From the IMG/VR virus record IMGVR_UViG_3300035698_015122, positions 1 to 30,650 of that record: a stretch of DNA of 30,650 bases. The stretch is one strand, 5' to 3'. Origin of the DNA: a virus. The notes under the pieces were generated by a model. That model ran no database searches, was not told the DNA's origin, and saw nothing but the letters and a program-made list of their open reading frames with translations. The position numbers and the translations under genes were made by a program. Of the stretch, positions 7,970 to 30,650 are shown piece after piece. Numbering within the stretch: the first letter of the stretch is position 1; each line of letters starts with the position of its first letter.

Positions 7970-7997
7970 TCAGTGAGAGAAATTATACTCTCACTGA
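7970..7997. terminator. Bidirectional hairpin terminator
   Basis: TCAGTGAGAG and CTCTCACTGA form a perfect 10-bp stem around an 8-base loop. CGGT (7961-7964) and ACCG (7997-8000) could add an outer helix. It sits between the convergent genes ending at 7945 (+) and 8012 (-). There is no long T run after it on the plus strand; on the minus strand an A/T-rich stretch follows. Confidence 0.65.
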
Positions 7998-14735: not shown

Positions 14736-16385
14736 TTATTTCCCCTCTCTCGCCCACTTATAAACATTACAACCACAATCCCAAATTCGATCATACCCAT
14801 TAAGTTGCATATTCTGCCATTCAGTCAATTCTGGATCAAATGTATCTAATATATTGTGGAGTTTGTGTTTTTGAAATTTAATACGGGAATATCTCTTTCT
14901 AGAATTTTTAAAATAATGATACGCCGGTGGCGCGGAATGTTGAAATTGAAAACCAGCTTTGAGGTATGACTCGCCTTCACCATACCGCCTGTCTGCATAA
15001 GTCAACAAACTCTTAATATCTAAGTTCAGTATTCCGTATTTTATTAATCTACTAAGACCACCAACTACTACCGAATCAGAACAGTTCGTAAATCTCAAAA
15101 TTTCCCATTCAACATTTTTATTAAACCTAGATTTACCAAATGTTATGATTGACACTATCGCGCCTTTATATTTTAATCCAAAATGACGACCACTGACCGA
15201 TCCCTGAATATGATATTCGTCTAAAAGTTTCTTAGCTTCATCTCTTGGAATATCTATAATTTGACATTTTCGCGCAAATATTCGTTCACTACATTTATTC
15301 AAACGATAACGTATAAATCGTTCAACAATAGATTGATTATACACCCACTCATCTTCAAATATCTGAATTAGATCTACGTCCTCTTTAATTGCTTTAATTG
15401 TTTTATCTATATGATATTTTTTATCGCACCCGGATCCTTCTCTATGCCAATATAAACCATGAACTTCAATTCCTAATTTATGATCTGGAAGATATATATC
15501 TATCTCTTTACCATCTAATACAGTTCGATCATTGATTATAATATTATCAGTTAATTCACGACAATATTTTACAATTTCAGATTGAAGCTGCGACATATAA
15601 AGAGGATAACATATTGTACATCTTGGTATAGATCCATTTTTAATATTATCGAATATCATATTCCCACATTCATTACATACCCACCAATGAGCCACATATA
15701 CACCTTGATATGAATCTAAATTAAACAATGGACGACATGAACCTTGTAATCTATTCTCGTATAGTTGATCATAAAAATTAGTTTTACGAGTCTGACGTAT
15801 TTGTTTTTGAATCTGAGGGTTCTGATATGGATGTTTAAATCCATATCTTTTCAGATTTGTCGCAAAGCTCTTTTCTTGAATATGTTGATTCTGCATAACA
15901 TTTGAGACTCCATATCGAGTTTGGACTGTATTGCGACTTTTCATCTGAATATCTTTATTACTAAGTGGTGTCTTATAACCGTATCGTTCAATATTGGTGG
16001 CTTCTCTTTTTAACTGAAATTTCTTAATCGACATAATATGATCAACACCATACCTACACTTAATTGTATCTTTCTGTTTTTGCTTAATAACTTCATTCTG
16101 CATAGGATGAGAGCCATATTTTCTCATAAACACATCAGAGGTTTTTTGTTTTTTGTTTTTACATGAGTTGCTACATTTAACTGAACAATATCGTTTATAC
16201 CCTTCTGTCAAACTTATAAATTTAGGTTCATTATCACACCCATCTTTTTCACATATCGACGGAGTCAAATCAATGTATTTATCATAATAATATTGAGGTT
16301 TAATCTTATGGCGCTGGGTTAAATGTGAAGATAACCCAGCGCCATTCTTATATTCCCGATTACATATTTGACATTGTAATTTCAC
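14736..16385 (-). CDS. Free-standing homing endonuclease, EDxHD (Vsr-like) type
   Basis: About 549 residues from GTG 16385. An in-frame ATG at 16457 would overlap the upstream gene by 62 bases, so I prefer the GTG. Domains in order: a C2H2-like zinc finger (CQIC...H...H, residues 5-26), a second Cys cluster (about 45-75), five repeats of about 23 residues built on RYG...QN..IQ.K (about 88-200, probable DNA-binding repeats of the DUF723 kind), a four-Cys zinc site (237-259), then the nuclease EIDIYLPDHKLGIEVHGLYWH with Glu294, Asp296, Glu307, His309 and His314. A Vsr-like fold is known for this family. It lies between the HAD and gp6 genes and is likely a mobile gene inserted in the baseplate operon. 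Endonuclease 2 has the same plan. Confidence 0.8.
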   Translation of the reverse strand: MKLQCQICNREYKNGAGLSSHLTQRHKIKPQYYYDKYIDLTPSICEKDGCDNEPKFISLTEGYKRYCSVKCSNSCKNKKQKTSDVFMRKYGSHPMQNEVIKQKQKDTIKCRYGVDHIMSIKKFQLKREATNIERYGYKTPLSNKDIQMKSRNTVQTRYGVSNVMQNQHIQEKSFATNLKRYGFKHPYQNPQIQKQIRQTRKTNFYDQLYENRLQGSCRPLFNLDSYQGVYVAHWWVCNECGNMIFDNIKNGSIPRCTICYPLYMSQLQSEIVKYCRELTDNIIINDRTVLDGKEIDIYLPDHKLGIEVHGLYWHREGSGCDKKYHIDKTIKAIKEDVDLIQIFEDEWVYNQSIVERFIRYRLNKCSERIFARKCQIIDIPRDEAKKLLDEYHIQGSVSGRHFGLKYKGAIVSIITFGKSRFNKNVEWEILRFTNCSDSVVVGGLSRLIKYGILNLDIKSLLTYADRRYGEGESYLKAGFQFQHSAPPAYHYFKNSRKRYSRIKFQKHKLHNILDTFDPELTEWQNMQLNGYDRIWDCGCNVYKWAREGK

Positions 16386-16395
16386 TATATTTCTA

Positions 16396-16998
16396 TTATC
16401 CAAATAGTTGTTTATATAAACCAACTCTCGGTAGAGCTGATTCTTCCATCTCTTCATCTTCTACTTCATCTTCTACTTCATCATCAACTTCTTCTACATC
16501 CTCAAGTTCTTCATCTATTTCTTCTTCTTCATCCTGATCTTCTTCGCTAGCCTCATAAATATAAGATTCGGGAGAACCAAATACTCTTTCATAGAGATTG
16601 CCTTCTTTAAATGTTCCACCAGGAGAATCTTTACCGAATTCACTAGGCGGTCTTTCTCCTGCTTGTTGCCCATCATCACCACCAGCCTCTGGCTCATTTT
16701 TCATCATATCAGGAGCACTTGCTTTTCCAGCATCAGCCTTGGCTAATTGCATTTGCCCTTCTGGAGTTTTTTCATTAGGATCACCAGCAGTATCTCCATC
16801 TTCACCAGCTTCAGATGGGTGTTCCATATTTTCTGGACCCTGTTTCACGGGGTTCTTGGGTTTATCTGAAGGAATGCCTTCATCTCTTATTCCTGCGACA
16901 CCGGGGCGACCGTTCACACCAGCTTCTTCACCCTCATAATCGACAACTCCATCTGCTCCAGCTTCTCCAAAAATTTGTTTATAAAGTTTACCAGTCAT
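16396..16998 (-). CDS. Possible internal-start product: acidic scaffold-like protein
   Basis: Inside the HAD gene, AAGGAG stands 8 bases before an in-frame ATG at 16998, a better ribosome binding site than that of the full gene. The product would be 200 residues: low complexity, very acidic at the end (about 300-330 of the parent is almost all Glu/Asp), with the hydrophobic motif LYKQIFG at its start, LYERVFG in the middle and LYKQLFG as its last residues. Acidic internal proteins of this kind occur in T4 prohead cores (gp22, gp67). It could be made together with the full fusion. Evidence is the ribosome binding site and the domain boundary only. Confidence 0.4.
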   Translation of the reverse strand: MTGKLYKQIFGEAGADGVVDYEGEEAGVNGRPGVAGIRDEGIPSDKPKNPVKQGPENMEHPSEAGEDGDTAGDPNEKTPEGQMQLAKADAGKASAPDMMKNEPEAGGDDGQQAGERPPSEFGKDSPGGTFKEGNLYERVFGSPESYIYEASEEDQDEEEEIDEELEDVEEVDDEVEDEVEDEEMEESALPRVGLYKQLFG

Positions 16999-24128: not shown

Positions 24129-24166
24129 ATTATATATATTAAATTTTGAAATAATTGATTAATCAA
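24129..24166 (+). promoter_or_regulatory. AT-rich promoter-like motif with a palindrome
   Basis: CATTATATATATTAAATTTT at 24129 is followed by the perfect palindrome TTGATTAATCAA at 24155-24166. The first part recurs at 8594 and 25454. It stands before the plus-strand gene at 24201. The palindrome could be an operator. Back-to-back with the minus-strand late motif at 24109. Confidence 0.4.
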
Positions 24167-26879: not shown

Positions 26880-26910
26880 TAAAGGGCTGGAAACTTAATC
26901 CAGCCCTTTA
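26880..26910. terminator. Bidirectional hairpin terminator
   Basis: TAAAGGGCTGG and CCAGCCCTTTA form an 11-bp perfect stem around a 9-base loop, between the convergent genes ending at 26853 (+) and 26929 (-). On the minus strand A/T-rich sequence with TTTTA follows. Confidence 0.75.
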
Positions 26911-26928: not shown

Positions 26929-28617
26929 CTATTTTATAAACAGATTTAGACTGATCTGCTCTACTACTTTCGTAGGTCTCAAAGTTACATTGCAGTGAAA
27001 TTGTTTCGCCTTTAGTTCGTATTCAGTTGCGGCAACACTGACTTCATAACTGTAAAGCCCTCTTTTATTTTTGATAACTTTAAGAAATGAATCTACTTCG
27101 TTTCTCACCTTCTGCCATGTGTACTGATCATTCAATTCAAAAATATAGAATTTACAGAATTGCTCAAGAGCCCGCTTGATATAAAGAACTAGTCTCATAA
27201 CATTGAAGTCTTGAAGTGCAGATGGTCTCTTCTGTGTCGTAAGCTGTCCCCAAACAGTGTATCCCACGTTGAACTTAACAATAGGATTAAGCTGTTGTAA
27301 GTACATTAGCTCACGTTCACCCTGGAGAGGAGAGAATCTAAGCTCTTTAATGGTAGCCACAGTCGCTCTATTAAAGCCAGCGGGAGCATACCAAAGTTCA
27401 GCTACATTCTCAGTATATGGTATAATATTAGCCATATGGTAAACAGGAGTGATCCATATATCGCGACCTGTAAATAAATCGAATATCTTTGAATATGGTT
27501 CATACATTGCCAAATATCTAGTATTAAAAGTGTGGTCATCAGCTCTAGCTGCCAACGACTGAGTCACATTATAATTATCACCATTATCTATAACTCCAAT
27601 ACAATCACGTCTGGTAGTTGTAAGAACATAACAACCATTTGTTTTGACATCTGTATTATAACCACCATCTAATACAATACTGAAATATACATTATCGATG
27701 TCTAATACTTCTGTAAGATAATCACCATCGGTTTTCTCTAACAGACCAGTATAAGCTTTGATAAGTAGTTCATCAGCAACGGTAGGAACAACATTACCTC
27801 CAGAAAACAATTCTCCAGAAGTTCCACCATCAGTTCCGACAGCGCCACTCCGAAACGGTTGTGACCAATCCGCTCTATCATTTACATCTGCTTGTAAACA
27901 AACATCTCTATTTGATTTACATCTGAGAAATCTTGAGAATCTATTAATAACATCTTCTATATACATAGACTCAGCTGAATCATCAACGTCTCTGTAATCA
28001 AAAGAAACTTCGTATGATTCAATAATTTCATACTGATCAGCCCCAGTCTCATCTTCTTCATCTTGCAATTGAAGAATATCTAAAATATACACACCCTCTC
28101 TCTGAGGATTCGCATGTTGGGATATATCAATCTGAAAGTTGTTGTACCATTCACCGCGACCAATACCATATATAACTATACAGTTCTCAGGATTCTGAGT
28201 TGTGCTTACAAGAGTATCTAATTCATTTTCATTATTAATAGATAGATTCCAATCAACACTTATATCAGCAGTACCATCTAATCCTAAACCACTACCTCCC
28301 GCCGTTTCTGCTTTGAGAATTAAATTAGCATATGTAGCATTTGTAGGAAGACAACGAACCGTATAAAGAACATCAGATTCTTTCATAAAAGATCCGGCAA
28401 CATATGGTCCTTGACTAACCTGTTTTGCATATGTTCCACCATAAAGAATATTTGGCTCACCGTAATCTATATAGAAATCTCTATTGTTTGTAGCTATCAA
28501 TTTGTTATCTTCTCCTCTTTCGGAGATGATCGGTAAGAATCCAATCGTACTCGGAACATTTCTTACATATTCTGAGAGATCAATAATTTTCGTGTATACA
28601 CCTGGACTTACTGCCAT
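26929..28617 (-). CDS. Contractile tail sheath protein
   Basis: 562 residues from ATG 28617, preceded by GAGGAGG; the TTG at 28644 in the same frame lies before this ribosome binding site and is not used. The N-terminus AVSPGVYTKIIDLSEYV is the classic sheath start (SPGVY...D.S). A variable middle follows (about 150-330, with a VSFDYRDVDDSAES region). The C-terminal part has RDCIGVID (about 324-331), FNRATVATI (about 406) and FNVMRLVLYIKRALEQFCKFYIFELND (split: FNVMRLVLYIKRALEQF, then YIFELND), the conserved interlocking C-terminal domain. The protein forms the outer tail sheath and contracts on infection. It stops in TAG with a TAA seven codons later, before a terminator. Confidence 0.9.
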   Translation of the reverse strand: MAVSPGVYTKIIDLSEYVRNVPSTIGFLPIISERGEDNKLIATNNRDFYIDYGEPNILYGGTYAKQVSQGPYVAGSFMKESDVLYTVRCLPTNATYANLILKAETAGGSGLGLDGTADISVDWNLSINNENELDTLVSTTQNPENCIVIYGIGRGEWYNNFQIDISQHANPQREGVYILDILQLQDEEDETGADQYEIIESYEVSFDYRDVDDSAESMYIEDVINRFSRFLRCKSNRDVCLQADVNDRADWSQPFRSGAVGTDGGTSGELFSGGNVVPTVADELLIKAYTGLLEKTDGDYLTEVLDIDNVYFSIVLDGGYNTDVKTNGCYVLTTTRRDCIGVIDNGDNYNVTQSLAARADDHTFNTRYLAMYEPYSKIFDLFTGRDIWITPVYHMANIIPYTENVAELWYAPAGFNRATVATIKELRFSPLQGERELMYLQQLNPIVKFNVGYTVWGQLTTQKRPSALQDFNVMRLVLYIKRALEQFCKFYIFELNDQYTWQKVRNEVDSFLKVIKNKRGLYSYEVSVAATEYELKAKQFHCNVTLRPTKVVEQISLNLFIK

Positions 28618-28672
28618 AACTGTTTCCTCCTCGCTTATATTCAAATAACGTGATATTAAAAAGTCCTCTTTC

Positions 28673-28814: not shown

Positions 28815-29483
28815 ATGTTCCAAGATTGGTTGATAAAAGTAGATTCTCAGGAATCTATCGAAGGAACCATAGGTTTGATGGACGGGAGAGCCGAGATATG
28901 TTTTCCAATGTATCTCGACCCATTTACGGGGTCATCAAAATCTATCAAAGAAATGTGTAACCCAGAAATAAACTTAATCTCTGGATGCACAATTGAATGT
29001 GCAGATGGATCGGGAGTATTTATTAAATCTCCCAAAAAGAGGGCGATGTATCTTATCCAGGATATCATGAATAGGCATAAAAATTATATGATGTCCCTTC
29101 TAAAGAAAATTAATAAAGAAATTCCAATATCTCCAACAGAATTAATGATTTATACAAAAAAACCATTGTTTGCATTGGATCTCGACTCTATTTCAGCATG
29201 TATTTTTGAAATGGGGTATGCCACAACTCCAACCGAGGCTGTGTATTGGTTAGAATCGTTAATAGTTGATAATATTCAACTCCCACCATTAAGCTTCTTT
29301 GAAGAATACCGCGATTCTGAAAGTGTTTATATGATTCATCCAATCGACGATCACATTATGATGATCGAAGATGGAAAGTTCACTGGAATCATAGTGAACA
29401 AGTTGGAGGACTCTGCAGTTATTTATTTTGCTAAAGAATCAGGAATAGAAATAGTAATTGGAACAGGCAGAAAATATGTCTGA
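28815..29483 (+). CDS. Protein of unknown function
   Basis: 222 residues, ATG after AAAGGGGGCG. Mixed alpha/beta, no signal peptide and no membrane helix. It has acidic patches and three Cys in the first 70 residues that do not form a knuckle pair. The segment ALDLDSISACIFEMGYATTPTEAVYWLESL (about 117-146, split as ALDLDSIS and ATTPTEAVYWLE) looks like a helical bundle. It shares a plus-strand unit with the 29525 gene, 41 bases apart. Not recognised. Confidence 0.6.
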   Translation: MFQDWLIKVDSQESIEGTIGLMDGRAEICFPMYLDPFTGSSKSIKEMCNPEINLISGCTIECADGSGVFIKSPKKRAMYLIQDIMNRHKNYMMSLLKKINKEIPISPTELMIYTKKPLFALDLDSISACIFEMGYATTPTEAVYWLESLIVDNIQLPPLSFFEEYRDSESVYMIHPIDDHIMMIEDGKFTGIIVNKLEDSAVIYFAKESGIEIVIGTGRKYV

Positions 29484-29524: not shown

Positions 29525-29977
29525 ATGAAATTAAATTTGAAGTTGAAGGGGTCTAATGTACTGGTAGCCGGGATCGCCAGAGTCGCAGAAGCAGTCCGTC
29601 ATATCGAAACAAACATCAATGGACCTGAATCCAGGCTCGCCAAGAGAGCCTCGGCTATCAAAGAAGCCATGCTCAAGGGCGACGGAACATCAGCAAATAT
29701 TCAACTTGATCTTGATGATCAGGTTGATGCCATCGCTGCCGAGTATCTTGAACTCGGATCTATGTATGCAGAAAAACTGATCACAATTAATGGATTAATT
29801 GAAAACTTCGCGGGGCCCGCTATCAAGGATGCTGGCCTTGGCATAAAGGTTGGAAAATACAGCATCAATATTAAAAAAGACAAAACCGGAAAAGTAATAG
29901 AAGAGGCCATCGGAACCGCAACAAACGGGCCCGAGAAAGTAACTCCTGATGAAAAGGCTGCCCATAACGCATCGTAA
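29525..29977 (+). CDS. Protein of unknown function, helical N-terminal half
   Basis: 150 residues, ATG after AAAGGAGG, one of the best ribosome binding sites here. The gene is noticeably more GC-rich than its neighbours, which hints at high expression or a different origin. Residues about 10-100 are helical and Ala/Glu-rich; 105-125 looks like a short beta hairpin (GIKVGKYSINIKKDKTGK cut here at 18 residues); the end is charged. The strong ribosome binding site and the excellent terminator after it suggest an abundant product. No family recognised. Confidence 0.6.
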   Translation: MKLNLKLKGSNVLVAGIARVAEAVRHIETNINGPESRLAKRASAIKEAMLKGDGTSANIQLDLDDQVDAIAAEYLELGSMYAEKLITINGLIENFAGPAIKDAGLGIKVGKYSINIKKDKTGKVIEEAIGTATNGPEKVTPDEKAAHNAS

Positions 29978-29981
29978 AAAT

Positions 29982-30019
29982 AGGCACACCCAATCTATAA
30001 TAGCAGATTGGGTGTGCCT
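29982..30019 (+). terminator. Strong hairpin terminator
   Basis: AGGCACACCCAATCT and AGATTGGGTGTGCCT form a 15-bp perfect stem around an 8-base loop, 5 bases after the stop of the 29525 gene. The following sequence is A/T-rich but lacks a pure T run. Confidence 0.75.
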
Positions 30020-30058
30020 GATAGTTTAAATATATAATAATTTTTAGGAGGTTATAAT

Positions 30059-30175
30059 TTGGAAATTGTATTTTGGTTAGTTATAATTGTTCTGTCTTCT
30101 GCAGGAATAATGAAACTATCAGAAAGTATTGAAGGAATCATTAAAAAAAATTCTAATAAAAATAAGAATAAATAA
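30059..30175 (+). CDS. 38-residue single-span membrane protein
   Basis: Starts with TTG 8 bases after TAGGAGG, and ends in TAA at 30173. Residues 3-17 are hydrophobic (IVFWLVIIVLSSAGI) and the rest is a short basic helix ending in Asn/Lys. The excellent ribosome binding site supports it even though it is short. The membrane helix at the N-terminus with a positive tail predicts the tail inside. Function unknown. Confidence 0.5.
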   Translation: MEIVFWLVIIVLSSAGIMKLSESIEGIIKKNSNKNKNK

Positions 30176-30185
30176 TATAAGGTTA

Positions 30186-30239
30186 GTGTATCGTTACTGA
30201 ACCGGGCGGCGATACACATTAACCCGGTTAGTCCGGTTC
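30186..30239 (+). ncRNA. Pseudoknot-like RNA element
   Basis: GTGTATCG (30186-30193) pairs with CGATACAC (30210-30217), an 8-bp stem. Its loop carries GAACCGGG (30199-30206). AACCGGG there can pair with CCCGGTT (30223-30229), and GAACCGG with CCGGTTC (30233-30239). Two mutually exclusive partners for one loop make a switchable pseudoknot. It lies just before a terminator and after a small gene, so it may be a small RNA or the 3' end of the mRNA. Confidence 0.45.
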
Positions 30240-30245
30240 GCATTA

Positions 30246-30282
30246 AGAAAGGCTGGTAAATGCTCTCCTCCCCAGCCTTTCT
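30246..30282 (+). terminator. Rho-independent terminator with a CU-rich loop
   Basis: AGAAAGGCTGG and CCAGCCTTTCT form an 11-bp stem around a 15-base loop and are followed by TTTTG. The loop contains CTCTCCTCC, complementary to Shine-Dalgarno-type sequence. It ends the transcript that holds the pseudoknot. Confidence 0.8.
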
Positions 30283-30295
30283 TTTTGTTAATATT

Positions 30296-30487
30296 TTACA
30301 CACAAACTTTATTTGCTAAAGATCCAGTTGAACATTCACCAATATGACCTTCAGTTTCTTTTTTTATAAATTTTTCATAATAACCTTCAACATTTAGACC
30401 ATCTTGATTTTGTTTGCAGGCTTTTATATGTTTCGAAAGACCTACTAATAATTTAAATTCTCTTTTACATAATTGACATTTTTCCAC
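30296..30487 (-). CDS. Orphan zinc-finger protein related to the endonuclease N-terminus
   Basis: 63 residues from GTG 30487, with GGAGG 7 bases before it. CQLCKREFKLLVGLSKHIKAC (residues about 4-24, split as CQLCKREFK and GLSKHIKAC) matches the N-terminal finger CQICNREYKNGAGLSSH of the homing endonuclease at 14736-16385, and the following YYEKFI matches YYDKYI there. So it is the finger module alone, without repeats or nuclease. It could be the remnant of a third endonuclease or a real small DNA-binding protein; the good ribosome binding site favours expression. Confidence 0.6.
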   Translation of the reverse strand: MEKCQLCKREFKLLVGLSKHIKACKQNQDGLNVEGYYEKFIKKETEGHIGECSTGSLANKVCV

Positions 30488-30506: not shown

Positions 30507-30522
30507 GTTTAGATTTTGTCCT
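30507..30522 (-). promoter_or_regulatory. Late-promoter-like motif, weak variant
   Basis: On the minus strand AGGACAAAATCTAAAC, matching GGACAAA but with a degraded TATAAA part, about 20 bases before the zinc-finger GTG. Confidence 0.25.
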
Positions 30523-30538
30523 CCAGAAAAATGATGAT

Positions 30539-30613
30539 CAACTCTCTTAACATACCAAGTAAAAACCAACTCTCTACATATAAATGTACCAGGAAAAAAC
30601 TAATTCTCTACTT
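30539..30613. repeat. Three imperfect copies of a short repeat
   Basis: CAACTCTCT at 30539-30547 and 30567-30575, and the variant TAATTCTCT at 30601-30609. The last two sit in longer similar blocks beginning TACCAAGTAAAAACC and TACCAGGAAAAAACT. The region lies upstream of the zinc-finger gene and runs to the window edge; it could be a regulatory array. The rest of 30488-30650 shows no gene. Confidence 0.35.
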
Positions 30614-30650
30614 GAAGTCTTTCGAATTGTAGAAAACGTAACTCGAGCAA

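Follow-up and report, generated by a model that had tools for sequence, protein, structure and literature searches.

Our analysis points to a real, moderately unusual orphan pseudoknot that lies directly upstream of an ordinary terminator; the RNA that holds both is most likely a short accessory message, with the knot in its 3′ UTR. We rate as somewhat better than an even bet the reading in which the element forms the structured end of such an mRNA, transcribed from a large, uncultured AR9/phiKZ-like phage and coding for a hydrophobic peptide of 38 residues. An initial annotation had proposed a trans-acting small RNA or a regulated 3′ end. The structure and the terminator are present and a regulated 3′ end is possible, but the small RNA finds little support, as a promoter-like motif precedes the open reading frame (ORF) and not the knot. 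Switching of the knot and action in trans are possible but unsupported.

The window, the whole stretch of DNA analyzed, is the entire IMG/VR record IMGVR_UViG_3300035698_015122 (30650 bases). Judged by matches of its tail sheath, baseplate and homing-endonuclease genes to PHROGs, it is part of the genome of a large phage with a contractile tail. Full-length relatives of the sheath occur in other virus records, such as L129 (67% identity), L130/L138 (60%), L150 and L151, of which L138 (the same contig as L130) is 236 kb, L150 201 kb and L151 223 kb; L147 and L148 are likewise duplicates. AR9, PBS1 and phiR1-37 are among the named phages that are distantly related (23-27% identity). The sheath ORF as listed, 26929-28644 (−), has a TTG start; the relatives, together with a Shine-Dalgarno sequence, indicate that translation really begins at an ATG near 28617.

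Every letter of the 8-bp stem (S1), the loop segment and the two 7-bp partners that the initial annotation described is in place, by sequence and by repeat finder (Table 1). The S1 arms are 100% complementary and enclose a 16-nt loop. Pairing of the loop segment with partner 1 excludes pairing with partner 2, and the energies are almost the same when bare duplexes only are compared. The 8 bp of S1 and the 7 bp of the second helix, S2, interleave as in an H-type pseudoknot, with counted loops of 6, 3 and 5 nt for partner 1. What the annotation had overlooked is a 5-bp GGTTA/TAACC extension of S1 in the minimum free energy (MFE) structure, which adds 3.9 kcal/mol (−30.8 versus −26.9). As this extension overlaps partner 1 and has no bases in common with partner 2, the consistent states are short S1 with partner 1 or extended S1 with partner 2. 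For 30170-30300, the MFE comes to −44.2 kcal/mol (z = −5.35), with any pseudoknot left out of the computation.

Table 1. Features of the accessory insert (window coordinates)
Feature	Position	Strand	Remarks
150-aa orphan gene	29525-29977	+	No relative in collections searched
15-bp perfect hairpin	29982-30019	Strand-neutral	T-run on minus side (ATTTTT); end of 150-aa gene
Promoter-like motif TTTAAATATATAATA	30025-30039	+	TTTAATATATATAATA with one base deleted; ahead of 38-codon ORF
Shine-Dalgarno AGGAGG of 38-codon ORF	30046-30051	+	From sequence
38-codon ORF, TTG start	30059-30175	+	Hydrophobic N-terminus, lysine/asparagine-rich tail
S1 extension, 5′ arm GGTTA	30181-30185	+	Pairs with 30220-30224, two bases bulged; MFE structure
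S1, 5′ arm GTGTATCG	30186-30193	+	Repeat finder, MFE structure
Loop segment GAACCGGG, 5′ strand of S2	30199-30206	+	Two registers; from sequence
S1, 3′ arm CGATACAC	30210-30217	+	Repeat finder, MFE structure
S1 extension, 3′ arm TAACC	30220-30224	+	Overlaps partner 1 at 30223-30224; MFE structure
Partner 1, CCCGGTT	30223-30229	+	Pairs with 30200-30206; duplex −11.2 kcal/mol
Partner 2, CCGGTTC	30233-30239	+	Pairs with 30199-30205; duplex −11.7 kcal/mol
Terminator hairpin and T-rich tail	30245-30290	+	Arms 30245-30256/30272-30283; 15-nt loop 30257-30271
HNH homing endonuclease remnant, 63 codons	30296-30487	−	Convergent with pseudoknot RNA

We asked how often such an arrangement arises by chance. 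Its one-partner form (a perfect stem of 8 bp or more, a loop of 10-25 nt and a loop 7-mer complementary to a site no more than 35 nt downstream) turned up on average 0.55-0.65 times in a dinucleotide-shuffled copy of the window, both strands counted. When the first matching 7-mer had at least 5 G/C, the figure fell to 0.011 per shuffle. Two separate partners were found in 0 of 100 shuffles in one run and 10 times in 1205 in another. In real sequence, two-partner cases were absent from 23 sheath-bearing loci (319 kb, L130 left out as the same contig as L138); a further 127 viral loci (1.15 Mb) had 11, every one of them in a G+C-rich, repetitive-looking stretch. Since both partners repeat the same sequence in direct orientation (CCGGTTAGT CCGGTTCGC), the two matches are not independent coincidences, and the search was framed after the finding had been seen. 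Thus, the interleaved helices exceed chance, with a significance that is moderate rather than overwhelming.

In the collections searched, the predicted pseudoknot is an orphan, so that no homologue backs it by covariation. None of 4227 Rfam families matched the window at the gathering threshold; at E values up to 10, the 13 matches within 29900-30400 were all sub-threshold and none was usable. A group I intron remnant, a ribozyme and a CRISPR-repeat mimic were dropped, as none had any Rfam match. BLAST with the pseudoknot against phages and plasmids returned no homologue, and matches in the insert region fell at 30113-30168, 5′ of the knot. The pattern GAACCGGG..CCCGGTT..CCGGTTC hit seven stretches in viral_contigs, all apparently unrelated G+C-rich repeats or coding DNA, and a tighter form hit nothing there; the GAACCGGG pattern hit three loci in genome_contigs, all unrelated. 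A covariance model built from the window alone (two identical rows), run on the window and 26 other loci, recovered only the window and weak terminator-like matches; its empty result against 10 longer virus records carries little weight. Scans of the relatives for a stem plus loop partner returned A+T-rich matches that look like chance. A 15-mer was too short a query, and among the matches listed all were attributed to chance.

The knot sits in DNA that the relatives lack. In L129, the homologue of gene 28815-29483 lies only ~70 bases after a conserved gene, while in the window ~1 kb separates the two; this extra ~1 kb makes the pseudoknot part of an accessory insert. It holds the 150-aa orphan gene, the 15-bp hairpin, the 38-codon ORF, the pseudoknot with its terminator and the 63-codon remnant, and its junction is variable, with homing endonucleases there in relatives. 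Gene 28815-29483 (+) precedes the sheath gene on the opposite strand and is fast-evolving, the L129 homologue being just 24% identical; the L150 gene at this position has a weak PHP domain match, under Pfam's cut-off.

Searches of viral_contigs, genome_contigs, phages and plasmids turned up no relative for the 150-aa protein, whose single-sequence structure prediction was poor (mean pLDDT 45.6). The hairpin that follows it is terminator-like for leftward transcripts. For the 38-residue peptide, we found no match in Pfam, PHROGs or phages, nor in viral_contigs by back-translated pattern; a weak tblastn match in L132/L133 (E 0.02-0.06), on a coding-like, wrong-looking strand, was dropped as chance. 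The HNH remnant joins a zinc-finger-like N-terminal unit to the C-terminal tail GHIGECSTGSLANKVC and matches residues 110-152 and 444-459 of a 460-aa protein of L150. Apparently, it arose by internal deletion, with a promoter-like motif and Shine-Dalgarno sequence retained.

The hairpin downstream of the knot has the form of an intrinsic terminator. Its 12-bp arms are 100% complementary, its loop is TAAATGCTCTCCTCC, ending in CTCTCCTCC, and the stem, with a T-rich 3′ arm, is followed by TTTGTT. It lies where a transcription unit would end, between the convergent ORFs 30059-30175 (+) and 30296-30487 (−). A stricter terminator scan of the window, allowing loops of no more than 8 nt, did not list the 30245-30283 hairpin; it is among nine perfect hairpins in the window that have stems of 9 bp or more and loops of 3-20, of which those at 7970-7997 and 26880-26910 likewise lie between convergent genes. 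Elsewhere in the window, a 14-bp perfect hairpin (ATGGCGCTGGGTTA/TAACCCAGCGCCAT, 16308-16345) lies inside the ORF region 14736-16457 (−); it is terminator-like, but not at any listed gene end.

Relatives carry a hairpin at the same convergent junction. The 3′ end of the conserved gene is at 30574-30648 (−) in the window, and its 23 residues were matched by 13 entries, the duplicate pairs L130/L138 and L147/L148 included. By eye, a strong hairpin follows this gene, before a convergent gene, in seven of the 11 non-duplicate relatives (L129, L138, L139, L140, L141, L143 and L147), five of which (L139, L140, L141, L143 and L147) also pass the hairpin filter. L149 and L152 have no convergent gene at the junction, and L150 and L151 have an endonuclease gene there. 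This shared placement makes the terminator role of 30245-30290 well supported, and we regard it as an ordinary intrinsic terminator. It resembles intrinsic (Rho-independent) terminators between convergent phage genes in its G+C-containing stem, its T-rich tail and a convergent-junction position common to relatives, but differs in its longer loop (15 nt; the comparison set was 35 hairpins with loops of 3-17) and in the pseudoknot immediately upstream. AR9 operons are reported to have strong ends at predicted terminators (PMC5312081). The pseudoknot is absent from all of these junction relatives; as they manage with a hairpin alone, the knot would not be required for termination.

Where the transcript would begin is suggested by motifs shared across the phage family. 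In the window and 15 close relatives (without the duplicate or distant L130, L131-L137 and L148), AGGACAAATTATAAA had 36 matches at no more than 2 mismatches, versus three in one shuffle of each, and the AT-rich TTTAATATATATAATA had 30, versus four in one shuffle of each of the 16 sequences. The late-promoter-like AGGACAAATTATAAA is family-wide, and most relatives also have it ahead of their sheath gene; the window has four exact copies, at 76 (+), 24123 (−), 25386 (−) and 28687 (−), and one with 2 mismatches at 30522 (−). The second, early-promoter-like family motif, in the form TCANNATTTAATATATATAATA, occurs at 24143 (−), 8609 (−) and 30025 (+). The AR9 study gives the late type as AACA-6N-TA/G and the early type as AAATATATATTAT-6N-G (PMC5312081); set beside these, AGGACAAATTATAAA resembles the late type and TTTAATATATATAATA the early type, a likeness by sequence only.

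Matches of the TTTAATATATATAATA type with no more than one error number three in the window, 30025-30039 included, versus 0.13 per shuffle. The one-base deletion in the motif argues against 30025-30039 as a promoter; the AR9 study reports that the virion polymerase is very sensitive to promoter deviations (PMC5312081). Directly before the pseudoknot there is no strong late-type motif (AGGACAAA-TATAAA), and upstream of 30181 nothing is comparable to the 30025-30039 motif; a 3-mismatch match at 30164 belongs to a quality class with 18 found and ~10 expected. Sigma-70-like matches in the region numbered 6, versus 8.5 expected, and none directly upstream of the pseudoknot was above chance. Since a family motif precedes the ORF and nothing comparable precedes 30181, an mRNA of ~30045-30290 is favored. 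The likeliest RNA would thus be a ~245-base mRNA ending in the pseudoknot and terminator, not a free ~100-base small RNA.

A model that we prefer for this element starts from a short rightward mRNA, from about 30045 to 30290, that would encode the 38-residue hydrophobic peptide and end at the intrinsic terminator between convergent genes, as in relatives. Just upstream of the terminator, its 3′ UTR would fold into the H-type pseudoknot, with S1 forming first and its loop then pairing with one of the two downstream repeats. We infer that the knot would mainly shield the coding part from 3′-to-5′ decay and let the terminator stem fold unhindered. The two near-equal registers may be a mere trace of a small tandem duplication. 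Directly observed are the sequence, how rare this arrangement is, where the terminator lies, the promoter-like motif and the lack of the element in relatives; the transcript, its fold and its role are inferred.

The initial annotation had also noted that the terminator loop is complementary to ribosome-binding sites. The pairing is present but not convincingly better than that of shuffled loops. Across 29 gene starts, the best duplex of TAAATGCTCTCCTCC was −12.7 kcal/mol, equalled by 487 of 1000 shuffled loops; 44 of 1000 shuffled loops, and 5 of 1000 random 15-mers from the window, attained its mean of −7.8. Shuffled loops did as well in 75 of 1000 cases against the site of the 150-aa gene and 328 of 1000 against that of a 222-aa gene. 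The anti-Shine-Dalgarno property of the loop is at most weak and generic. These figures bear on whether the element yields a trans-acting small RNA of ~100 bases, primary or processed from the mRNA 3′ end, whose CU-rich terminator loop covers ribosome-binding sites, which we consider unlikely. The mean pairing of the loop and its CTCTCCTCC end speak for such an RNA, and 3′-UTR-derived small RNAs are a known kind, but shuffled loops pair just as well with their best single target, any strong Shine-Dalgarno sequence would pair in this way, promoters directly upstream do not exceed chance and the Rfam matches are all sub-threshold. The element is like the H-type pseudoknots of small RNAs and riboswitches, such as RydC and the preQ1 classes, in its loop-to-downstream pairing and two interleaved helices; it is unlike them in having no Rfam match, no same-strand downstream gene to regulate and two alternative partners. 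The same loop could instead act on its own mRNA, in a unit resembling type I toxin systems. In that case, the 38-residue peptide would be a membrane toxin or a lysis or exclusion peptide, and two brakes would act on its mRNA: the 3′ loop folding back to the Shine-Dalgarno sequence, and an antisense RNA made by leftward transcripts that stop at 29982-30019. The small hydrophobic ORF with a strong Shine-Dalgarno sequence near the presumed 5′ end, the 3′ anti-Shine-Dalgarno loop, the outward-facing terminators on both sides and the late-type motif at 30522 (−), which could drive antisense read-through, all fit. However, the loop pairs with this Shine-Dalgarno sequence at −9.8 kcal/mol, which 92 of 1000 shuffled loops reach, the peptide has no known relative (Pfam, PHROG, phages), and the two segments are not paired with each other in the MFE structure of the 252-base stretch, computed with a program that cannot show such a pseudoknot contact. 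Type I toxin mRNAs with 5′-3′ fold-back, such as those of AapA1 and hok, share the small hydrophobic ORF, strong Shine-Dalgarno sequence and complementary 3′ segment, but here the complementarity is weak and generic and the antisense RNA only putative. A toxin-like unit therefore seems distinctly unlikely to us.

Other readings concern the helices themselves. The inverted repeats (8-16-8 and 7-16-7), which interleave, could serve together with the direct repeat CCGGTT as half-sites for a phage protein such as a recombinase, nuclease or packaging protein, making the RNA knot a by-product. Both inverted repeats have 16-bp spacers and the insert lies at a variable junction that hosts homing endonucleases in relatives, but GAACCGGG and the two S1 arms are found nowhere else in the window, and a location directly before a terminator suits RNA; we hold a DNA-level site to be quite improbable. 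Equally doubtful in our view is a co-transcriptional RNA switch between extended S1 with partner 2 and short S1 with partner 1, altering termination, decay or translation of the membrane peptide while a phage with RNA polymerases of its own infects the cell. Recoding, by which the knot would promote read-through of the ORF's TAA and add 27 residues up to a TAA in the terminator loop, strikes us as highly improbable. No stop codon interrupts the frame across the knot (YKVSVSLLNRAAIHINPVSPVRIKKGW), the pseudoknot starts 10 bases past the TAA and the extended stem 5 bases past it, and this stop-spacer-pseudoknot geometry resembles the retroviral read-through signal. Against this, a 27-codon open frame is nothing unusual, TAA allows little read-through and no relatives were found for comparison.

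As it stands, the knot is a single orphan example at an ordinary terminator. If functional, it would be an example of a regulatory pseudoknot in a 3′ UTR of large phages whose genes are probably transcribed by phage-encoded RNA polymerases, a group in which, to our knowledge, 3′ ends are little studied. The promoter-like motifs are more generally useful for reading these phages.
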